In this document: in pieces, positions 4,147-16,384 of the stretch | Layout of the letters: every line of letters begins with the position of its first letter | How positions within the stretch are numbered: position 1 is the first letter of the stretch | Assembly (NCBI GenBank): GCA_018061265.1 | Contig: JAGOUM010000017.1 | Span: forward strand, 1 to 44,356 | DNA length: 44,356 bases | Direction: 5' to 3' | Origin: Rhodoferax sp. | Lineage (GTDB): Bacteria > Pseudomonadota > Gammaproteobacteria > Burkholderiales > Burkholderiaceae_C | Made by a program: the position numbers and the translations under genes | Notes under the pieces: generated by a model | The model's database searches: none | Seen by the model: the letters and a program-made list of their open reading frames with translations, nothing else | What the model was told of the DNA's origin: nothing

Positions 4147-5472
4147 TCAGGCGAAGCTGTCAGCCATCAGCGCATTGAACCAGGTGTTCATTTCCTTGAA
4201 GTTGTCGGTATCCCAACTCTCCGAAGCTGCCACACCCGCACCTGCGACCACCATCTTGGCGCTCACAGGGTCGTACTGGTACACCGCTGTAAGCCAGGAC
4301 GCTTGTGTCATGGTGATGGTGGAGTAACAGGCGGAGTTGGTTACCGGTGCAGGGTCTGCCGGCAATTTGGCCAAGGCGCGCACAATGGCGTCGGCACAGA
4401 CTTTGGCTTCCTGATTGGCAATGTGCCCGGCCTTGGGTTGAGTGGTGTCGGCAGCGTCCCCGATCACATGGATTTTTGCCGCCTTGGTGCTTTCGTAGGA
4501 GAGCGGGTGGACGGTGGCAAAGCGTGCGTCTGCGGAATTATTCAGTCCGGCCATCGCGATCAGGCTGCCTGCCTTTTGGCGCGGAATCAGGTTGACACAG
4601 CCCAAATTGTCGAATGCCCCCATGGTGGTTGACAGTCGCATATTGCCCGGATCCACACCTTGTACTTCGGCGTTGGGGATGTAATCGATATTGTGCATTT
4701 TGAACGCCGCCTCAAAAACCAGTTTTTCTGCCTGGATGAAGGCATTGGCATCGAGCACCAGGACTTTGGATCTTGGCTTGTTTTTCTTCAGCCAGTCAGC
4801 GATAAGGCAAGCCCGCTCGTAGGGTCCTGGAGGGCAGCGGTAGGGCGCTTTGGGAATGGCCAGGACAAATGTGCCCCCGTCCGCCATCGCCCGCAACTGG
4901 CTCGACAACAGCGTGGTTTGGGTGCCGGCTTTCCAGGCATGGGGCATACGATCAGACGCGCCCAACCCCGGAACATCATCAAAATCAATGCCAGGGGCGA
5001 GCACGATGCGATCGGCCGACAGAATGGTGTTGTCAGCCAGTTTGACACGCACGCCAACGGTATCGATTTCCTTGACGTCGCTGCGAATGACAGTGACCCC
5101 ATACGCCGACATCAGCTTGCTGTAGTTATAGGTCAAGCTCGCCATGGTGCGTTGCCCTGACAGCACCAGTGAGCTCATGATGTTGGAGACGTAGCTGGCT
5201 TCGCGTTCAATCAGCGTGACTGCGATGCCATCACCCCACAGGCGCAGGTATTTGGCCACTGTGGCACCCGCCATGCCGCCGCCAATCACAATCACCCGTG
5301 CCTTGGCTCCAGGGGCTGGTGCCGGTGTCGGGTTGGGTGCCGGGGTTGACGTTGGGGCATCGTCGTCAGACCGGTCTTTCCTGCGTTTTTTTCTGTCGTC
5401 GTCAGCCCAGGCCATGGGTGAGCCTGCTGCCAGCAGCAGACCGCTCTTGGAAAGGAAATATCGTCTATGCAT
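4147..5472 (-). CDS. FccB-like sulfide dehydrogenase flavoprotein (FAD-dependent oxidoreductase)
   Basis: The 441-residue protein resembles the flavoprotein subunit of flavocytochrome c sulfide dehydrogenase, a periplasmic enzyme that passes electrons from sulfide to cytochrome c. A twin-arginine export signal opens it (RRYFL, cleavage near AWA at 22). A charged, Pro-rich linker (23-56) follows, then the FAD site VIVIGGGMAGATVAKYL (60-76) and the PHAWKAG and RCPPGPYERAC blocks, with Cys213 and Cys222. Compared from memory with the Allochromatium FccB, the covalent-FAD cysteine position reads SNIMSS without Cys, and the second redox cysteine (IGDAC) is IGDAAD. The flavin is then probably non-covalent and the active-site disulfide altered; Cys292 (GCVNLIP) is nearby. 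It lies 22 bases after the cytochrome gene. True sulfide oxidation is not certain. Confidence 0.82.
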   Translation of the reverse strand: MHRRYFLSKSGLLLAAGSPMAWADDDRKKRRKDRSDDDAPTSTPAPNPTPAPAPGAKARVIVIGGGMAGATVAKYLRLWGDGIAVTLIEREASYVSNIMSSLVLSGQRTMASLTYNYSKLMSAYGVTVIRSDVKEIDTVGVRVKLADNTILSADRIVLAPGIDFDDVPGLGASDRMPHAWKAGTQTTLLSSQLRAMADGGTFVLAIPKAPYRCPPGPYERACLIADWLKKNKPRSKVLVLDANAFIQAEKLVFEAAFKMHNIDYIPNAEVQGVDPGNMRLSTTMGAFDNLGCVNLIPRQKAGSLIAMAGLNNSADARFATVHPLSYESTKAAKIHVIGDAADTTQPKAGHIANQEAKVCADAIVRALAKLPADPAPVTNSACYSTITMTQASWLTAVYQYDPVSAKMVVAGAGVAASESWDTDNFKEMNTWFNALMADSFA

Positions 5473-5494
5473 GATGTGCTCCGTATTCTGGGGT

Positions 5495-5803
5495 TTAGCG
5501 CTGGGTCGACAGCCAGCTGGCGAGTGACAACAATTGGGCGTCGGTGTAACCCATGGCGTGTTTTGCCATGATTCCCTTGCCTTCCTTGCCGGCCTGGAAC
5601 TCCTTGAGTTCCTTGTAAATTTCAGAGGCGGACTCCCCCGTCAGTTTGTCGAACCCCGGCCCCTTGCCGTTGGTGCCGTGGCACTGAAAACAATTGGATG
5701 CCAGCAGCCGTCCAGCCGGTGGCGCGGTTTGGGCCTGAGCCAGGCCGCACACCGCCAGTGCGCCAGCGATCAGGCCAGCAGTTGCCTTGTTGGAAAACTT
5801 CAT
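5495..5803 (-). CDS. Periplasmic monohaem cytochrome c (FccA-like)
   Basis: This is a 102-residue class I cytochrome c. A Sec signal peptide ends at about residue 25 (GLAQAQ). One haem-binding motif, CFQCH, follows near residue 38, and the likely axial Met is in IMAKHAMGYTD. The size and position match the small cytochrome partner of flavocytochrome c sulfide dehydrogenases. The FccB-like gene starts 22 bases downstream on the same strand, so the two probably form one periplasmic complex or redox pair. The ribosome site is AAAGGGG, close before the ATG. A CTTAC direct repeat lies upstream, next to the kinase stop codon. Confidence 0.88.
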   Translation of the reverse strand: MKFSNKATAGLIAGALAVCGLAQAQTAPPAGRLLASNCFQCHGTNGKGPGFDKLTGESASEIYKELKEFQAGKEGKGIMAKHAMGYTDAQLLSLASWLSTQR

Positions 5804-5885: not shown

Positions 5886-7268
5886 TCAGCGAGGCCAACG
5901 TACAGTCACGCACAGTCCACCCAGGGCGGCTGAGCGCTGCACGTCGACCTCTGCCTGATAGACCGCTGCAATACGGCGCACGATGGACCAACCCAATCCG
6001 CTGCCTGCTTGGTTGTTGCCCAGGACCCGAAAAAAGCGCTCGCCCAGGCGTGTGATATCCGAGTCGGCCAGTCCGCAACCACTGTCCTGTACCTGCAAGG
6101 TCACCACCAAATCAGACCGGCTGATTGAAATCAGCACTTCAGCGCCGTGCGGGCTATACCGCAGCGCGTTGTCCACCAGATTGCGCAGAAGAACGGAGGT
6201 GAGAATCTCATCGGCCTGAATCAAACACGAACCGGAAGCGTCCAGCGCCAGATCCTGCTTTCGGCACAGTGCATCGGGTGCCATATCTGCCGCAACCCGT
6301 TGTGCCAGCACTGCAAGGTCGATCACATGGGTTGGTGGTGCGGCGCTGGCGGCTTCCAGTCGGGAAAGTGTCAACAACTGCTCAACCAAATGCGTGGCAC
6401 GGTCGCAGCCCTCCAGCGTCTGTTCCAGGGCATGGGTGCGCTGCTGTGCGTCGGTGCCGGCCCCGAGAGCCACCTGTGCCTGCATCCGGATGGCGGCGAT
6501 GGGGGTGCGCAACTCGTGCGCTGCGTCCGCGGTAAACCGTCGCTCATTGGCCAGCATCTTGTGGATGCGCTCCAGCAGTGCGTTGAGTGCTTGCACCACT
6601 GGCTCGATCTCGCTGGGCATGTCACCAACCTTCACCGCATCGAGTGCCTGCGGTTGTCGCAGGGACAGCTCCCGACTCAGGCGGCGCAGGGGCGTCAGCC
6701 CATGGCGCACCGCCAGCCATCCCACCAGGCCCAGCAAAGGCAGGGCATATACCAGCGGCATCAGAACACCTTGGAGAATGGCCCAAAGAATGGCACTGCG
6801 CGATGACACCTGTTCGCCAATATAGACCTGCACATCACCCTCGTTGCCCCGCGCAGCAAATACCCGCCAGCGGGTCTGGTCTGCCAGTTCCACGGTGTCA
6901 AAGCCCCGGCTGACCTGGGTCATTGGGGTGGCCGGCGCATTGGCAGAGCGCAGGGTCATATGGCCCTCATGAAAAACCTGAAACGCCACCCGTGGTGCGT
7001 ACTTGTGTAATGGCGGTGCATCGTCATCGTCGTGATGATCGTCATTGCCGAGTTCGGGCGGGGGGGTGCCGTCCGCCCCATGCCCCGTTTGCTGTGCCAC
7101 CAGCAAGGCAGCAGATTGCGCCAAATGCCCATCGAGCAGTTCGTCCAGTTCATGCTGGATGTCCAGCCAGGTGAAAATGGCTGTGGTGAGCCATACCAGC
7201 GCCACCATCAGCAGCAACAAGGCAAGCAATCGGGCTTGCAGGGATTTCAACGCAGGAAGTCGCGGCAC
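5886..7268 (-). CDS. QseC/PmrB-like sensor histidine kinase
   Basis: The 460-residue membrane kinase has TM1 (about 13-35), a periplasmic sensor (36-158), TM2 (about 160-187), HAMP, HisKA with His251 in ADAAHELRTPIAAIR, and HATPase. The HATPase shows NLVDNALRYS, DSGCGL and GSGLGWSIV. The family is QseC-like (QseC_N periplasmic type). Its periplasmic domain holds an unusual acidic and His-rich patch at about 75-88 (NDDHHDDDD, then LHK), a possible metal-binding site. It starts 8 bases after the regulator gene. A cytochrome c and an FccB-like gene follow on the same strand, so redox or sulfur metabolism may be part of its regulon. The signal is unknown. Confidence 0.9.
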   Translation of the reverse strand: MPRLPALKSLQARLLALLLLMVALVWLTTAIFTWLDIQHELDELLDGHLAQSAALLVAQQTGHGADGTPPPELGNDDHHDDDDAPPLHKYAPRVAFQVFHEGHMTLRSANAPATPMTQVSRGFDTVELADQTRWRVFAARGNEGDVQVYIGEQVSSRSAILWAILQGVLMPLVYALPLLGLVGWLAVRHGLTPLRRLSRELSLRQPQALDAVKVGDMPSEIEPVVQALNALLERIHKMLANERRFTADAAHELRTPIAAIRMQAQVALGAGTDAQQRTHALEQTLEGCDRATHLVEQLLTLSRLEAASAAPPTHVIDLAVLAQRVAADMAPDALCRKQDLALDASGSCLIQADEILTSVLLRNLVDNALRYSPHGAEVLISISRSDLVVTLQVQDSGCGLADSDITRLGERFFRVLGNNQAGSGLGWSIVRRIAAVYQAEVDVQRSAALGGLCVTVRWPR

Positions 7269-7276
7269 AGTCCGGC

Positions 7277-7948
7277 TCAGTGTGATGCCTTTGGCCTGGG
7301 CAGGGTGTAGCCCACACCGCGCACGGTCTGTATCAGGTCAGGGCGAAGTTTTTTTCGCAGATGGTGGATGTGCACCTCGATGGTATTGCTCTCAACTTCA
7401 GCACCCCAACTGTAGAGTTGCTGTTCCAGTTGTTCTCGCGACAGTACACGCCCAATGTTCAGTAACAGGACGTGGAGCAGGTCAAACTCACGGGTTGACA
7501 GTACAACCTCCTGACCGCCAAGGCTGACCTTGCGGGCTGACAGGTTCATTTGCAGATCTGCGCAGTCGATCAGGTCCTGCGTCTGCCCGTGGGCACGCCT
7601 GACCAGCGAGCGCAGACGCGCACCCAGTTCAAAAAGATCCACGGGTTTCAGGACATAGTCATCAGCGCCCAGATCGAGTCCCTTGATGCGGTCCGGCACC
7701 GCGTCACGCGCGGTCAGCACCAATATCGGCAAGGTCATCTTCCTTAGCCGAAGGGACTGCAATACCTCCAGTCCGTCTTTGAACGGCAGGCCCAGGTCCA
7801 GCACGGCCGCCTGGTATTCGCCACCCATTATTTCTCGTTCAGCGGCCAGACCGTCTCGTACCCAGTCCACCAGGTACCCTTGCTGCCGCAAGCCGGCACG
7901 CAGGCCGTCACCCAGCATGGCGTCGTCCTCAGCAAGAAGGATGCGCAT
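7277..7948 (-). CDS. QseB/PmrA-like response regulator
   Basis: This is a 223-residue OmpR-family regulator. The receiver domain has the acidic pocket AEDD (7-9), phospho-acceptor Asp51 (VLDLGLP) and Lys in KPVDL. The winged helix has TREFDLLHVLL, then NTIEVHIHHLRKKL as recognition helix and VRGVGYTLPRP as wing. It pairs with the kinase 8 bases downstream. Its start codon lies inside the end of an upstream transposase-like gene (20-base overlap), which implies translational coupling. Regulators of this clade bind TTAA-containing direct repeats 11 bases apart; such repeats occur at 8836-8852 and 13596-13622. Confidence 0.92.
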   Translation of the reverse strand: MRILLAEDDAMLGDGLRAGLRQQGYLVDWVRDGLAAEREIMGGEYQAAVLDLGLPFKDGLEVLQSLRLRKMTLPILVLTARDAVPDRIKGLDLGADDYVLKPVDLFELGARLRSLVRRAHGQTQDLIDCADLQMNLSARKVSLGGQEVVLSTREFDLLHVLLLNIGRVLSREQLEQQLYSWGAEVESNTIEVHIHHLRKKLRPDLIQTVRGVGYTLPRPKASH

Positions 7949-8813
7949 GCCCGACCACTTGATTGGTGGCGCGCCAGGTGCGCCACTGAGCCGCTGGTTG
8001 AGCGACAGCCGTGTCTCCCAAGGTGTGCAGAGTCAGGCGTTTGTGCGTGATTTGCAATTGTTGCCGAACCTTGTCGTTCAGCGTCAACTGGCTGGCACTC
8101 AACACCAGACAAACCGGGCGGTTGCGCCCACGCATCAGTTTGTTGGCCAATGCCAGCCACAACGGGTCATCGTCCAGACCCGGGCAGTTCCAGAACCAGA
8201 ACGCACCCTGCGCATTCACGGTCCAGAACTGCCGCCCGGAACCAGAAGGGCATTCCAGGGTTTCGCCAAACAGCAATTCAGCCCCTTTGGCTTTGGCGCG
8301 TTCGACCAGCGCAGGCAAGGTGTTTCTGCGCCAACTGGCAGTCACTTCAGGGTCGATGGTTGCTGCCGCCTGCAAAGGCTTCGGTGGCGTCAGGCCAATA
8401 CGGGACAACAGGGCCGCCACTGTCAGCAGTGAAATCTTGACGCCGAGTCGTGCATGAATCAGATCCCTGACCAATCCCTGGGTCCAGAGGCTGCCTCGCA
8501 GCCCACATTGATCCGGGCGTTTGCCATCCAGACAGGCCAAAACCTGACGCTGTTGCGCCGCCGAGAGTTTGCACGGGCGTCCACCTCCGGGACCTGCGCG
8601 CATACCACTTGCCCCGTCTTCTTTCAGGGCTGCGTAACATTGGTATGCCCAGGCGCGGCTCATGCCCAGTGACACTGCGACATCCGACGGAGGCTCACCC
8701 TGGCCGATGCGCCGGGACGCCAGAGCCCGCAAAGCCGCCAGAGCGGGCCTCGGCAGCTTGCGACCATTGGGTCGAGGGTCAGTGGTCGCCGTGGCCGCAA
8801 GCATCTCGTTCAT
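7929..8813 (-). CDS. Helix-turn-helix protein derived from an IS630-type transposase
   Basis: The 294-residue protein starts with a helix-turn-helix (about 40-65, DVAVSLGMSRAWAYQCYAAL), then the linker GPGGGRPCKLSAAQ. A second winged helix-turn-helix follows (about 105-140, QGLVRDLIHARLGVKISLLTVAALLSRIG). Both are typical of IS630/Tc1-type transposases. The C-terminal half keeps the outline of the DDE fold, but the catalytic acids appear lost: LLFGETLE stands where a DE pair is expected, VLSASQ where the second Asp should be, and no final Glu is clear. There are no inverted repeats beside it. It overlaps the QseB-like gene by 20 bases. I infer a domesticated, non-transposing DNA-binding protein, probably a regulator. 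Confidence 0.78.
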   Translation of the reverse strand: MNEMLAATATTDPRPNGRKLPRPALAALRALASRRIGQGEPPSDVAVSLGMSRAWAYQCYAALKEDGASGMRAGPGGGRPCKLSAAQQRQVLACLDGKRPDQCGLRGSLWTQGLVRDLIHARLGVKISLLTVAALLSRIGLTPPKPLQAAATIDPEVTASWRRNTLPALVERAKAKGAELLFGETLECPSGSGRQFWTVNAQGAFWFWNCPGLDDDPLWLALANKLMRGRNRPVCLVLSASQLTLNDKVRQQLQITHKRLTLHTLGDTAVAQPAAQWRTWRATNQVVGHAHPSC

Positions 8814-10933: not shown

Positions 10934-11680
10934 TCAGTCTCGTTCTTTCTTGCGGATTTTCCCGCCGGGTTTGTCCGAGCCCCTGTTTTGCGGCTCATCG
11001 TCGGCACTGCGGTGGCATTCGACACAATTCTCAAAGTCCCGAATGCCCTCTTCCTGATGCTCAGCCAGGATTTTGGCGGGCGTGTGTTCGTGGCAGCCAT
11101 AACAGGTGTACCGCTTGTAGTCATTTTTCAGATGGCATGTCTCACACTGGGTGTTGTGGTCTTTGTCGAGCAGGAAATACTTGTCATGGTCAAAAGTAGC
11201 AGGTTTCCAGGCAGTCTGGCTGTGGCACTGAGTGCAGTTGCCGGTGACCTGACGGTGCAGACTGTCGGTGGGTAACTTGTGGCAGCTTTGACATTGCTCG
11301 CGCACTGCAAGCTTCAACAGCGCGTGCGAAAACGGCTTGCGGCTGCGCTGGGTGAGTTTGGGGCCTTGGTGGTCAACGTGGCAGGCCATGCAATCCTGCT
11401 CGGTCAGGTCCTGGTGAAACGAGGTCTTGACGGTTTTCTTGACCAGGGGAACGCCTTTGCTGGTGCGCACGCCAATATCAGGCAGTGCGTGGCAACTGAC
11501 GCAGCGTGCGCTGGATGCGCCAAGCAGCGGTGCATGGCAGGCAAAACAATCCGTGGCGATCTCGCCGTGCGCCACCACCACCGCACCTGGGCTGACCATC
11601 AAGTGCGGGTAAACAAACACCAGAACAGCCAGCACCAGCAGGTTGAAGGTGATCAGCATCATGAGCCAGCCGCGCTTCAT
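10934..11680 (-). CDS. Membrane-anchored octahaem cytochrome c
   Basis: This is a 248-residue multihaem cytochrome with one N-terminal membrane anchor (about 5-27) and eight CXXCH haem motifs: CFACH (45), CVSCH (60), CMACH (97), CQSCH (130), CTQCH (149), CETCH (179), CYGCH (193) and CVECH (219). The pattern fits the class III / cytochrome c3-like superfamily, with bis-His haems in a periplasmic domain. The tail is short and Lys/Arg-rich (KIRKKERD). I chose the ATG at 11680 because it overlaps the upstream stop as ATGA; a second ATG lies 12 bases upstream. It is the last gene of the reductase - cytochrome b - cytochrome c operon and probably hands electrons to a periplasmic or outer acceptor. 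The acceptor is unknown. Confidence 0.87.
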   Translation of the reverse strand: MKRGWLMMLITFNLLVLAVLVFVYPHLMVSPGAVVVAHGEIATDCFACHAPLLGASSARCVSCHALPDIGVRTSKGVPLVKKTVKTSFHQDLTEQDCMACHVDHQGPKLTQRSRKPFSHALLKLAVREQCQSCHKLPTDSLHRQVTGNCTQCHSQTAWKPATFDHDKYFLLDKDHNTQCETCHLKNDYKRYTCYGCHEHTPAKILAEHQEEGIRDFENCVECHRSADDEPQNRGSDKPGGKIRKKERD

Positions 11681-12255
11681 TTCCAGCCCCAAAACAAAAA
11701 GATGGCCACAATGTGCCCCAGGCCCAGTACGGCAAACGCCAGGGTGATCGGAAAATGAATGGCACGCCAGTGCTTGACGGCATCAAAGGTCAGGCTGTCC
11801 CAATAGGTCTGGTCTTCCAGTTCAGCCGGGGCCAGGCCACTGGCCCGCATCTGCTGCCGTGCGGCTTCCAGACGTTTGCGTGAACTGTCAAGCAAATATT
11901 TGCCCACCAGCCCGCTGGCGACGTTCACCAGCATGGCGATGACGGCCAGCCAGCCGAGGATCGAGTTGAAGTGAATTCCTGCGTGCACCAGCACCAGGAG
12001 CGAGCCCAGCCAGGCCAGGAGTTCATGCCAGCGCAGTAACTGCACCGGCTGGCCAGACTTGATCAGCTTGCGTTTGCGCATAGAGTAGCCAAACGACCCC
12101 AGAATCAGTAGCGTGCCGGGAATCCCCAAGTAGCGGCCGATCCAGACGATGTTGGCCAGGTGCAAAGCCGCATCGATCAGCAGAGCGGCCACCACCAGCA
12201 GGGCAAAAGACAGCAAAAATGGCAACACCTCGCGACGGATCAGACGGGCTTTCAT
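11677..12255 (-). CDS. Membrane cytochrome b-like protein with two His pairs
   Basis: This 192-residue protein has about five hydrophobic segments (10-36, 44-60, 77-97, 99-121, 166-190). Two helices each carry two His residues 14 apart: His77 and His91 in RWHELLAWLGSLLVLVHAGIH, and His167 and His181 in HFPITLAFAVLGLGH. That geometry is what a transmembrane diheme b-type cytochrome needs, with one haem near each membrane face. I chose the ATG at 12255, 5 bases after the reductase stop; a longer frame upstream only reads through the reductase gene. Its stop overlaps the octahaem cytochrome start (ATGA). It resembles ferric-reductase / cytochrome b561-type membrane parts, but I do not recognise a named family. 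Confidence 0.75.
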   Translation of the reverse strand: MKARLIRREVLPFLLSFALLVVAALLIDAALHLANIVWIGRYLGIPGTLLILGSFGYSMRKRKLIKSGQPVQLLRWHELLAWLGSLLVLVHAGIHFNSILGWLAVIAMLVNVASGLVGKYLLDSSRKRLEAARQQMRASGLAPAELEDQTYWDSLTFDAVKHWRAIHFPITLAFAVLGLGHIVAIFLFWGWK

Positions 12256-12260
12256 GGGCT

Positions 12261-13565
12261 TCAGGCCTCCAGTTCCATGTCTGAGCCGGGTATGGCCACA
12301 CACAACAGGCAGTGCCCAGGAGCAGGGTCGTGATCTGGCGGGTTGGCATAACGCACCACGCCCTTGAGCAGACGCGTCTGACAGGCACCACAGCCGCCGG
12401 AGCGGCAACCGGATTCGACTGCCACGCCGTGGCGCTCGGCAAAGTCCAGCAGATTCAATTGCTGGCCATCCCAAGACAAAGTGCGCTGCGACCGGGCGAA
12501 GCGCACCGCTACCGGGGTGGACAGCGCAGTCGGCGCAGCGGTGCTGGTCAGCCGCACTGAGGCCGGGCCAAAGGCTTCAAAATGAATGTCTTGCGAGTGC
12601 ACACCCCAGGCCGCCAGCGCCGGCACCAGCGATTCCATCATGGATGCCGGGCCACAGATGTAAAACTGGTGCGCTCCCAGCGGCAGTTCCTGGCGCAGCA
12701 TGGCCACATCCACATGGCCGTGGTGCCGGTAGTCACGGCCCGGCAAATCGTCTGGCTCTGGCTGGCTGTACACCACATGCAGATGTAATTGCGGGTGGTC
12801 GGCGGCGAACTGCTCCAGCACTGATTTAAAGGCATGTTCGCGACCGCTGCGCAGTCCGTAGAACAGGTGCACCGTGCGCTCGGGCTGCCTGGCCAGACAC
12901 CAGCGCAGCATGCTCATCATCGGGGTGATACCGATACCGCCGCCAATCAGCACAACCGGGGTGAGGCAGGAGGTGTCGAGAAAAAAGTGACCAGAAGGCG
13001 CCTTGACCTGCAATACATCGCCCGGCTGAACCTGATCATGAAAATGGTTGGACGAAACACCGGGCGGCAGACCCGGCATGCCACGGGGTGCCGGAACTCG
13101 CTTGACGGTGATGCGGAAATGCGTTGCCTCAGGCATGTCGGACAAAGAGTAGCAACGTGTCACGGTCTGGGGCTTGGTGTTGGTCTGGGCACAGCCAGTC
13201 ACCTGCAGCTGAAAGGTCAAAAACTGACCGGGTTTGAAGGGTGCCAGCAGTTTGCCGTCCACCGGTGCAAGGTAGAACGAACACTGGCTCCCTGCCGGGT
13301 CTTCAATTTCACGTCGAAGTACACGAAACCCCCGGTGACCGGCCCACGCCAGATCCCGTTGGCTGTCAGCGGGTGGCGCAACCGGGATGGCAGTCGGGGC
13401 TTGCAGGGTGGTGTGCCTGCGCCACACCGCAAATCCGGCAAGAACCAGAATCTGCAACAAGATGCCCGAGAGAATATAAGAAAGGAGCTGGCTGGCAGTC
13501 ACGGCGCTGGTTTCAAGAATAAGGGGCGATTGTGCAAACTGGCGAACGATCGGTCGGTTCGGCAA
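12261..13565 (-). CDS. Membrane-anchored FAD/2Fe-2S NAD(P)H reductase
   Basis: The 434-residue flavoprotein has one N-terminal membrane segment (about 24-47), then a ferredoxin-reductase-type FAD domain (RCYS, 137-140), and an NAD(P)-binding domain (GGGIGITP at 208-215, YICGPASM at 302-309). A C-terminal plant-type ferredoxin domain has Cys387, Cys392, Cys395 and Cys422 for a 2Fe-2S cluster. Such proteins take electrons from NAD(P)H and pass them on singly. A membrane cytochrome b and an octahaem cytochrome c follow within 5 bases and a 4-base overlap. The first codon at 13565 is TTG without a clear ribosome site; a GTG at 13502 is an alternative start. Three CTTA repeats and an FNR-like site lie upstream. 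Confidence 0.87.
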   Translation of the reverse strand: MPNRPIVRQFAQSPLILETSAVTASQLLSYILSGILLQILVLAGFAVWRRHTTLQAPTAIPVAPPADSQRDLAWAGHRGFRVLRREIEDPAGSQCSFYLAPVDGKLLAPFKPGQFLTFQLQVTGCAQTNTKPQTVTRCYSLSDMPEATHFRITVKRVPAPRGMPGLPPGVSSNHFHDQVQPGDVLQVKAPSGHFFLDTSCLTPVVLIGGGIGITPMMSMLRWCLARQPERTVHLFYGLRSGREHAFKSVLEQFAADHPQLHLHVVYSQPEPDDLPGRDYRHHGHVDVAMLRQELPLGAHQFYICGPASMMESLVPALAAWGVHSQDIHFEAFGPASVRLTSTAAPTALSTPVAVRFARSQRTLSWDGQQLNLLDFAERHGVAVESGCRSGGCGACQTRLLKGVVRYANPPDHDPAPGHCLLCVAIPGSDMELEA

Positions 13566-13664: not shown

Positions 13665-13678
13665 TTGATTAAAAGCAA
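13665..13678. promoter_or_regulatory. FNR/ANR-like site
   Basis: TTGAT-TAAA-AGCAA differs from the FNR consensus TTGAT-N4-ATCAA at one base. Its centre is about 58 bases before the ATPase ATG and about 106 before the reductase start. It suggests oxygen-dependent control of one or both divergent units. Confidence 0.5.
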
Positions 13679-13729: not shown

Positions 13730-16384
13730 ATGATCAATTCGCCATCAAATGATGCCCTTCATGGCAGTCTGTCTGCTCCGGTCGGCCTCAGTGCCGAGCA
13801 GGCTGCCCATCGCCTTGCAGAAGATGGACCCAACACCTTGCCGTCAGAACAGACGCGTGGCTGGCTAGGGATCGCGCGTGAAACCTTGTCCGACCCCATG
13901 TTTGCATTGCTGTTGGGTGCGGCTGTGTTGTACCTGATTCTGGGCGATTTGCAAGAGGGGATGATTCTGTTTGGCCTGGTCTTGGTTGTGCTGTCGCTCA
14001 CCTTGTACCAGGAGGGCAAAACCGAACACGCTCTGGCCTCGCTGCGCGACCTGACCAGTCCGCGTGCTTTGGTGATGCGCGAAGGTGCACCGCTGCGCAT
14101 CGCCGGACGCGACGTGGTGCAAGGCGACTTGTTGATTCTGGCAGAAGGTGATCGAATCGCAGCCGATGCGGTGCTGGTACATGGCGTTGATGTCCAGACG
14201 GACGAGTCTTTACTGACCGGTGAGCCAATGCCGGTTGAAAAACAGCCTTGTGGCAGTGACAACTCACCGCAAAAAACTGCAGGGCCAGAGTCGTTGCTGT
14301 TCTCGGGTACGTTGCTGGTGCGCGGACATGGCATGGCGCGGGTGACAGCCACCGGGCCGCGAAGCGAGATCGGCCACATCGGCCGTGCGCTGGATTCCCT
14401 CTCGCTCGAGGCATCTCCACTAAGACAGCAGACGGCAAAACTGGTGCGCAACCTGGCAATGATTGCCCTGCTTGCCAGTCTGCTCCTGATACTCGTGGTG
14501 GGCCTAACTCAAAATGACTGGATGGCTGCACTGCTGGCCGGTATTGCACTGGCGATGGCGCTGCTGCCACAGGAGTTCAGTGTGGTGCTTACCGTAATTC
14601 CGGCACTGGGCGCGTGGCGACTGTCCAGGCACCAGGTACTGACCCGGCGTATTGCCGCCATAGAGACCCTGGGTGCGACCAGCGTATTGTGTGTCGACAA
14701 GACTGGCACGCTGACCGAAAACCGCATGACCGTGGTGCAGTTGTACGCCTGGCCTCCGATCCGTGCCGCCAGCCTGGCAGACCCGAACGACCACCTGCCT
14801 GAGGACAGTCTGATGATCAACGATGGCAACACGGCGAATTTGCCCGAGGCGTTTCATACGCTGGTTGAGTTCTCGATACTGGCCAGTGTCACTGACCCCT
14901 TTGACCCGATGGAGAAGGCCTTTCACCGTCTCGGGCAACATTTTTTGCAAGGCACCGAGCATCTGCACCATGACTGGACACTGGTGCAGCAATACGGTTT
15001 GACCCCCGAACTTCGCGCCATGTCACACGTCTGGAAAGCCCAAGCCGGTCGGGCGCATGTGGTGGCGGCCAAAGGGTCGCCCGAAGCGATTATTGATTTG
15101 TGTCACCTGGACCCTTTAGCGCAGTTGCGGGTGGCGCGCATGGTGGATGCCATGGCGGCCAAGGGTTTGCGGGTGCTGGGTGTGGCGCGAGCGCGTTTTG
15201 AAGGTGTTGACTGGCCAGCGATTGAGCACGATTTTGAGTTTGAGTTTGTCGGTCTGCTTGGGCTGGCAGACCCGTTGCGCCCTGGTATCCCGGCAGCCGT
15301 TGCCGAGGCACGCGGCGCAGGGATACGGGTGGTCATGATTACCGGTGACTATCCGGCCACTGCCACTGCGATTGCCCGACAGGCACAACTCGAGGTTACC
15401 TCGGACCACAGCTTGGCCAAAACCAGTGACTGGCTCCTGACGGGTGAAGCCATGGACCAACTGACCGACTTGCAATTACAGCAGCGAATAAACGCCGTGC
15501 GTGTGTGTGCCCGCATTGCACCGATGCAAAAGCTGCGTATTGTTCAGGCCCTCAAAGCGGGCGGTGCGGTGGTGGCAATGACCGGAGACGGGGTGAATGA
15601 TGCACCCGCGCTGAAAGCGGCTCATGTCGGGGTCGCGATGGGTGAGCGCGGCACCGATGTGGCGCGCGAGGCCGCGTCGATTGTGCTGCTGAACGACAAC
15701 TTTGCCGCGTTGGTGCAGGCGGTACGGCTTGGTCGGCGCATTTTTGACAACCTGCGCAAGTCGATGTCGTACATCCTTGCCGTCCATGTGCCCATTGCGG
15801 GCATGGCGTTGCTGCCAGTGCTGCTGGGCTGGCCTACCATGTTGTTGCCATTGCATATCGCTTTTCTCGAGCTGGTGATTGACCCGGCGTGTTCGATGGT
15901 GTTTGAGAACGAACCACCTGAACCGGACCTGATGCAGCGTCCACCTCGCGATGTCAACGCGCCGCTGTTTGCTGGTGTCACGCTGCTTTGGGCACTGCTG
16001 CAAGGTCTGGTTGCGTTGGGCATGGTGCTGGCAGCCGCCTGGTGGGGGCTGAATCACTTAAGCGAAGGCATGGCGCGGGCGTTTTCGTTTGCCACATTGG
16101 TGGCTGGCAATCTGGCCCTGATTCTGGTCAATCGGGCGGGTTCGGGCTCACTCTGGCAAAGCCTGCGGGTGCCCAACCGCACACTGTGGCTGGTGTGTGG
16201 CACCGCTCTGGCATTGATGGCTGCGGCCCTGTACCTGCCCTGGCTGACAGCGGCATTCCGGTTTGAGTTGCTGCCCTTGCCGCTTCTGGGTACCGCCTTT
16301 GGACTGGGATTGCTGGTGCTGTTGGGTTTTGGCGTTGTCAAACCCCGTGCTGCTGGCGCAGGCGTCGCACCTTCTCCAGGCTGA
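13730..16384 (+). CDS. P-type cation-transporting ATPase (P2-like)
   Basis: This is an 884-residue ion pump of the Ca2+/cation P2-type layout. A cation ATPase N-terminal domain covers about 15-50. Paired membrane helices (56-92 and 240-296) flank the actuator domain (LLTGEPMPVEK, 161-171). The phosphorylation site is Asp323 in CVDKTGTLTEN. The hinge TGDGVNDAPALKAAHVGVAMG lies in the P domain, and six C-terminal helices follow. In the fourth helix the usual PEGLP is replaced by LLPQEFSVV (278-286), so the ion-binding site differs from Ca2+ pumps; I recall PEEFP variants with unknown ion. It is divergent from the electron-transfer operon and shares its FNR-like site and CTTA array. Its last 47 bases overlap the convergent HD-like gene. 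Confidence 0.9.
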   Translation: MINSPSNDALHGSLSAPVGLSAEQAAHRLAEDGPNTLPSEQTRGWLGIARETLSDPMFALLLGAAVLYLILGDLQEGMILFGLVLVVLSLTLYQEGKTEHALASLRDLTSPRALVMREGAPLRIAGRDVVQGDLLILAEGDRIAADAVLVHGVDVQTDESLLTGEPMPVEKQPCGSDNSPQKTAGPESLLFSGTLLVRGHGMARVTATGPRSEIGHIGRALDSLSLEASPLRQQTAKLVRNLAMIALLASLLLILVVGLTQNDWMAALLAGIALAMALLPQEFSVVLTVIPALGAWRLSRHQVLTRRIAAIETLGATSVLCVDKTGTLTENRMTVVQLYAWPPIRAASLADPNDHLPEDSLMINDGNTANLPEAFHTLVEFSILASVTDPFDPMEKAFHRLGQHFLQGTEHLHHDWTLVQQYGLTPELRAMSHVWKAQAGRAHVVAAKGSPEAIIDLCHLDPLAQLRVARMVDAMAAKGLRVLGVARARFEGVDWPAIEHDFEFEFVGLLGLADPLRPGIPAAVAEARGAGIRVVMITGDYPATATAIARQAQLEVTSDHSLAKTSDWLLTGEAMDQLTDLQLQQRINAVRVCARIAPMQKLRIVQALKAGGAVVAMTGDGVNDAPALKAAHVGVAMGERGTDVAREAASIVLLNDNFAALVQAVRLGRRIFDNLRKSMSYILAVHVPIAGMALLPVLLGWPTMLLPLHIAFLELVIDPACSMVFENEPPEPDLMQRPPRDVNAPLFAGVTLLWALLQGLVALGMVLAAAWWGLNHLSEGMARAFSFATLVAGNLALILVNRAGSGSLWQSLRVPNRTLWLVCGTALALMAAALYLPWLTAAFRFELLPLPLLGTAFGLGLLVLLGFGVVKPRAAGAGVAPSPG

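Follow-up and report, generated by a model that had tools for sequence, protein, structure and literature searches.

A 44,356-nucleotide stretch of DNA from Rhodoferax sp. (assembly GCA_018061265.1, contig JAGOUM010000017.1), hereafter the window, carries three adjoining genes on its minus strand whose products would together conduct electrons from NAD(P)H to the periplasm. From 13502 down to 10934, these genes encode a membrane-anchored FAD/NAD(P)H/2Fe-2S reductase (12261-13502, 413 amino acids), a five-helix protein that is a putative di-haem b subunit (11677-12255, 192 amino acids), and a membrane-anchored octahaem cytochrome c (10934-11680, 248 amino acids). The first two genes are separated by a 5-base gap (12256-12260) and the last two share a 4-base ATGA overlap (11677-11680), both as given in the initial annotation of this DNA. 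The reductase had there been started at TTG 13565, up to which the reading frame is open and from which it would encode 434 amino acids. This start is probably wrong, as most homologues begin at a conserved M-T-A that corresponds to GTG 13502.

The reductase scores above the Pfam cut-offs for NAD_binding_1 (72.4 bits), Fer2 (41.5 bits), and FAD_binding_6 (30.3 bits), and contains the motifs RCYS, GGGIGITP, CGP, and CX4CX2C. Its FAD, NAD, and Fer2 domains occur in that order and are accompanied by the four cysteines of the cluster, which marks the protein as a predicted reductase of the FAD/NAD/C-terminal 2Fe-2S type. A single hydrophobic segment at the N-terminus is followed by five lysine and arginine residues, a charge pattern that would place the flavin domain in the cytosol under a positive-inside topology.

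Histidines occur in the five-helix protein at positions 32, 77, 91, 95, 162, 167, and 181, and the pairs His77/91 and His167/181 have the same 14-residue spacing. In an α-helix, residues 14 positions apart lie on the same face at a distance of ~21 Å. His32, 77, 91, 95, 167, and 181 are found in 70/70 rows of an alignment in which the window is counted twice, while His162 is found in 3/70. The four histidines originally singled out are therefore invariant, but two more invariant ones, His32 and His95, had been missed. A structure model of modest confidence (mean pLDDT 75.0, pTM 0.55) contains helices at residues 2-33, 44-54, 70-95, 99-139, and 151-188, the second of which falls under the hydropathy threshold yet is seen in the model. 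Hydropathy and charge suggest that the N-terminus lies inside and the C-terminus outside, so that on helices 3 and 5 His77 and His167 would lie close to the cytosolic end and His91 and His181 close to the periplasmic end. Both histidine pairs are at matching depth on two helices running the same way. Based on this topology and spacing, His77 may pair with His167, and His91 with His181, as ligands of two b haems.

Other conserved positions include S114, G115, and G118 (SGXXG, helix 4) and W163, H167, and H181 (WX3HX13H, helix 5), each present in 70/70 rows; helix 3 is without WX3HX13H, its position 73 being a nearly invariant Leu. The window protein has no Pfam match of note and no NCBIfam match at an E-value of 1. 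Weak matches to DUF4405 were obtained for 32 of 41 family members (best 3.4e-4) and to the b561 family for 9 of the 41 (best 2.4e-5). Ferric_reduct (PF01794) was matched by one of the 41 (E 0.019) and not by the window protein, whose two HX13H motifs are putative sites for two b haems. Membership among the ferric reductases or MsrQ proteins was rejected by profile comparison with 16 MsrQ-like and 9 FRE-like proteins (Prob <1), though the architecture is alike, and no profile signal was found against a local b561-like set.

A remote relative of ~280 amino acids is encoded directly upstream of a long cytochrome with many CXXCH motifs at the seven loci inspected (L055, L056, L057, L058, L061, L065, and L067). 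Its profile aligns with that of the five-helix protein over helices 2-4 (Prob 98.5, E 3.7e-15), the hhalign E-values being those of one-template comparisons between small local profiles of 9 to 16 members. In such remote relatives the position matching His95 shows no conservation, and no counterpart is seen for His32. These two residues, which lie where helices 1 and 3 reach the periplasm, seem particular to the five-helix clade of this trio and could possibly hold a third haem, bind a metal, or serve in docking of the cytochrome.

The cytochrome has eight CXXCH motifs, at residues 45, 60, 97, 130, 149, 179, 193, and 219. It possesses one N-terminal hydrophobic segment, and its charges suggest a periplasmic location for the c haems. 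Ten further histidines lie outside the CXXCH motifs, nine of them kept in at least 38/40 rows; these would be enough for bis-His ligation of all eight haems, as in an electron wire. Pfam cut-offs of class III cytochrome families are exceeded, and all 37 homologues compared (37/37) match these families too, with no NapC/NirT match among the Pfam hits of the 37 cytochromes at E 0.001. Haem number varies among the 40 homologous loci: eight motifs occur in 23, ten in 14, and seven in 2, and the cytochrome is split in 1. The original description as octahaem is thus not general for the homologues. Assignment to the enzymatic octahaem families acting on nitrite, hydroxylamine, or tetrathionate is not supported, since all eight motifs are plain CXXCH and the conserved spare histidines suffice for bis-His ligation. 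A search of solved structures returned weak hits only, the best being cytochrome nitrite reductase (E 0.005), and the structure model of the cytochrome (mean pLDDT 54.6) is too poor for use.

Read in gene order, the cofactors spell the path first proposed for this locus: NAD(P)H, flavin, Fe-S, two b haems, and eight c haems. Judged by its sequence, the trio is probably an inner-membrane NAD(P)H:periplasmic-multihaem-cytochrome oxidoreductase that serves electron export. The cytosolic reductase would receive hydride from NAD(P)H onto FAD and release single electrons through the 2Fe-2S cluster. These would be taken up by the five-helix protein and carried across the membrane by two stacked b haems (His77/His167, then His91/His181), after which the anchored octahaem cytochrome c would accept them and pass them on to periplasmic acceptors. 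In MsrPQ with Fre and in the NOX/FRE domain, a cytosolic flavoprotein likewise feeds b haems held by transmembrane histidine pairs, which in turn reduce a periplasmic acceptor. By analogy the trio may follow the same logic, although it differs from MsrPQ in having no MsrP-type partner among its three genes.

A contig scan with the five-helix protein returned 40 loci from Burkholderiales, Sphingomonadales, and other Proteobacteria, and the trio recurs in Burkholderiales and Alphaproteobacteria. In 37/40 loci (exceptions L003, L017, and L041) the start of the cytochrome gene overlaps the end of the five-helix gene by 4 bases, and three alignments (41, 37, and 31 rows) retain the cofactor motifs; the trio in the window is therefore real and not a product of chance. 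Pooling of the 40-locus scan with whole genomes gave 69 distinct five-helix sequences, including that of the window. A cytochrome adjoins all of them (69/69) and a reductase scoring >250 bits adjoins 49/69, with L090 and L094 counted as present though broken or partly masked. Where it adjoins, the reductase often overlaps or nearly touches the five-helix gene. The trio is hence no rarity but a conserved neighbourhood. Neither a second five-helix copy (E 0.001) nor a second cytochrome copy (E 0.01) was found in the genome of the window, which is 89.5% complete, and a search for plasmid carriage of the five-helix protein gave no match.

Among the 20 sequences that are without an adjoining reductase, two (L034 and L100) offer too little sequence upstream for a decision, and in at least two (L021 and L099) an N-terminal remnant of the reductase is left. 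The whole genomes of eight reductase-less loci were searched. Four of them (G251, G253, G255, and G256) carry the pair and have no reductase at E 1e-10, and the other four have weaker matches (best E 1.0e-70, 5.3e-71, 9.7e-63, and 3.5e-30) than the 2e-179 or better of four trio genomes. From the contrast between 69/69 and 49/69 it follows that the b/c pair forms the core, which the reductase often accompanies but can be spared. The unit is therefore not strictly a trio. At two reductase-less loci, the pair is preceded by a gene whose product resembles a b561-type cytochrome (L107:816-1430) or a di-haem cytochrome peroxidase (L041:1807-2859); these proteins are possible alternative donors or acceptors.

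The absence of the reductase beside 20/69 pairs and from four genomes indicates that the pair can work with another donor. It may thus function as a quinol dehydrogenase comparable to CymA or NetBCD, with the reductase as an optional second input. Cytochromes of the b561 type exchange electrons with quinones, and the weak DUF4405 and b561 matches would agree with such a role. Quinone exchange has also been proposed for related five-helix proteins (He et al., 2017; PMC5566968). The position of the reductase immediately upstream in 49/69 cases, often overlapping or almost touching, argues instead that it is the principal donor and not an incidental one, and a quinol dehydrogenase is considered an unlikely identity for the pair. 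CymA and NetBCD are described as quinol dehydrogenases that feed MtrCAB from the inner membrane (Baker et al.; PMC8805035). The trio resembles them, so described, in that electrons would move from the inner membrane to periplasmic multihaem cytochromes, whereas its dedicated donor would be NAD(P)H and its c subunit matches class III families and not NapC/NirT.

A literature search that covered few subscription journals recognised no paper naming this trio. He et al. (2017; PMC5566968) described five-helix proteins carrying HX13H from two porin-cytochrome clusters, PCC3 and PCC4, along with shorter proteins of this kind that adjoin an 'other multiheme cytochrome c' in genomes of Fe(II) oxidisers, usually without a porin. 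This porin-less group appears to hold the nearest published relatives of the trio, as judged by sequence features. On both sides a multihaem c adjoins a short protein of five helices, the third and fifth of which carry HX13H, and the published clusters, like the trio, usually include another redox protein and usually lack a porin. In contrast, the five-helix gene is upstream of the cytochrome here and downstream there, and the partner in those clusters is not identified as an NAD(P)H/FAD/2Fe-2S reductase in the passages of that paper compared here. The inner-membrane proteins of PCC3 and PCC4, as presented there, also have five helices, SGXXG on helix 4, and HX13H on helices 3 and 5, and they share WX3HX13H on helix 5 with the window protein. 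They differ from the window protein in having a Trp four residues before the first His of helix 3, the position of His77; moreover, the locus described here is without a porin or extracellular cytochrome, and its cytochrome type is membrane-anchored with 8-10 haems. The remote ~280-residue relative resembles this PCC3/PCC4 type of inner-membrane protein. For the porin-less group, He et al. (2017; PMC5566968) judged a part in extracellular electron transfer unlikely, no porin being nearby; the evidence considered here points in the opposite direction.

No porin is among the genes read around the trio in the window. The initial annotation had stated that neither a porin nor an outer-membrane cytochrome is present, which is correct for the locus but not for the genome: another contig (L145; G000:C223:8000-17718) encodes a complete MtrC-MtrA-MtrB set. 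Its products score above the respective cut-offs for OmcA/MtrC decahaem (557.8 bits; cut-off 209.3), MtrA/DmsE decahaem (270 bits; 192.2), and MtrB/PioB (438.5 bits; 240.05), and a nine-haem cytochrome, a b-type cytochrome, and a monohaem cytochrome are encoded there as well.

The five-helix gene and MtrB also co-occur beyond this genome. In a sample of 250 genomes of the family, with the five-helix gene called at E <1e-60 and MtrB above its cut-off, 14 genomes carry the former, 19 the latter, and 10 both, where ~1 would be expected. MtrB is present in 10/14 carriers and 9/236 non-carriers (Fisher 3.7e-10; 3.5e-9 without the genome of the window), and the ten genomes with both represent nine genera. 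As a control, only one of 10 family genomes with just the remote five-helix relative has MtrB above the cut-off. In a phylum sample of 398 genomes, 24 carry the five-helix gene, 22 MtrB, and 7 both. The corresponding proportions are 7/24 and 15/374 (Fisher 1.1e-4; ~0.003 without the family of the window); in the fourth of these Fisher tables the 'neither' cell was 352 where ~350 is right, an error of negligible effect. Ideonella sp. A 288, a carrier at locus L015, appears on the list of MtrCAB-encoding organisms of Baker et al. (PMC8805035). The outer-membrane conduit MtrA-MtrB-MtrC would be the most likely large consumer of the exported electrons in this organism and its relatives, and supply of MtrCAB by the trio is plausible. 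The early guess of metal or other extracellular reduction thereby gains indirect support, through the MtrC-MtrA-MtrB set of the genome and the co-occurrence with MtrB.

A further feature of the locus bears on when the trio would be expressed. Between the reductase and a divergent ATPase gene lies a box (13665-13678) with one mismatch to TTGAT-N4-ATCAA, the FNR/Anr consensus. The 300 bases upstream were scanned at 31 reductase genes, namely that of the window and those of 30 loci with an intact reductase. A box with at most two mismatches is present at 22/31, against an expectation of 2.4 by first-order resampling, and one with at most one mismatch at 14; 18 of the 22 boxes start between -78 and -120. 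In controls from the same loci, a box with at most two mismatches was found in 10.6% of 300-base windows taken at random (1060 in all) and in 13.2% of the regions upstream of other genes (197 in all), and one with at most one mismatch in 1.1% and 4.1%, respectively. Nine loci were treated apart (eight reductase-less ones and L024), four of which have a box with at most two mismatches. The conserved position and frequency of the box suggest that a regulator of the FNR/Anr type probably activates the operon in Burkholderiales when oxygen is low. A scan for sigma-70 promoters and terminators gave results near chance.

The ATPase gene (13730-16384, plus strand, 884 amino acids) encodes a P-type cation ATPase, a linked neighbour outside the electron path. 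It matches the NCBIfam HAD-IC P-type ATPase model (253.1 bits; cut-off 62.3) and lies below every substrate-specific cut-off. ATPases of one cluster are found near the trio in the window and in 13/40 loci, where their arrangement varies; in 5/28 carrier genomes (G000, G091, G192, G199, and G204) the ATPase and five-helix genes are no more than ~3 kb apart. Transporters of the VIT type (4 loci) and cation-diffusion type (4 loci) recur near the trio as well, as named by reading rather than by family search. These neighbours raise the alternative that the trio acts in metal or cation homeostasis, as a periplasmic metal reductase beside cation transporters and not in respiration. The ATPase is not needed for the trio, because no match to it was found at E 1e-20 in 13/28 carrier genomes, and a further 10 have a match that is located elsewhere; strict trio-ATPase linkage was accordingly rejected. 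Nor can a metal be named, given that the ATPase passes no substrate-specific cut-off, and a homeostatic role does not predict co-occurrence with an outer-membrane conduit. Such a role is regarded as improbable.

In sphingomonads, the genes around the trio or the pair encode a b-type cytochrome, a two-component system, and a VIT-like protein. The window itself encodes a two-component pair resembling QseBC/PmrAB (5886-7948, minus strand), and a response regulator similar to that of the window (cluster 5) stands near the trio in six homologous loci. A 294-residue open reading frame resembling IS630-type transposases (7929-8813, minus strand) overlaps the end of the response regulator gene. A helix-turn-helix reading frame similar to it is found beside MtrB at the end of the Mtr contig (L145:9371-9721). 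Further along the window (4147-5803, minus strand), a small class I cytochrome c is encoded next to an FAD oxidoreductase similar to sulfide:quinone reductase (101.7 bits, short of the cut-off), and the two read as a flavocytochrome c sulfide dehydrogenase-like pair.

Electrons might also move inward, with periplasmic or extracellular donors feeding the c haems and NAD(P)+ being reduced inside. Such electron uptake would suit the iron- or manganese-depositing habitats of some carriers, for example: Ideonella sp. A 288 (L015) is described as coming from an iron-precipitating biofilm and Rubrivivax sp. A210 (L018) is tied to manganese oxidation. Iron(II) and manganese(II) are weaker donors than NAD(P)H, so inward flow would need an input of energy, and the trio shows no sign of being coupled to the proton gradient. 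Uptake is thus very improbable, the least probable of the alternatives.

For the preferred interpretation, electron export from NAD(P)H by way of the trio and on to MtrCAB, several observations weigh on the other side. The reductase is absent beside 20/69 pairs, and the four genomes that carry the pair with no detected reductase would have to employ a different donor. MtrB above the cut-off is missing from 4/14 carriers in the family sample (G042, G192, G014, and G112) and from 17/24 in the phylum sample. The trio is also unlinked to the Mtr cluster, which lies on another contig in the genome of the window and far apart from the trio in G199, G091, and G121, and the cluster has an inner-membrane candidate of its own in the b-type cytochrome beside the nine-haem c. 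The co-occurrence may stem from shared lifestyle or ancestry, as the Fisher values take related genomes as independent. Regarding regulation, the box of the window is at -176, outside the usual -78 to -120; L002, the closest relative of the window, is without a box (3 mismatches); and in alphaproteobacterial loci of the phylum sample the box occurs in 2/20, the level of chance.

A more specific proposal is put forward tentatively, as a possibility that could well prove wrong: in Betaproteobacteria, the trio would form a direct, conserved, and FNR-controlled entry of NAD(P)H electrons into MtrCAB that bypasses the quinone pool, perhaps with a third haem or a metal site at His32/His95 on the periplasmic side. 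The characterised feeders of MtrCAB are quinol dehydrogenases, and the trio, found with MtrB far more often than chance would give, is a specific candidate for that missing step and one that can be deleted. Baker et al. (PMC8805035) state that their survey did not look for feeders in genomes outside the mtrCAB loci. If the proposal is true, part of the electron export in these organisms would conserve no energy at the quinone pool, and growth yields on iron or electrodes would have to be reckoned differently. If the acceptor is another, the trio would still represent a widespread and unnamed NAD(P)H-to-periplasm conduit that deserves a name.

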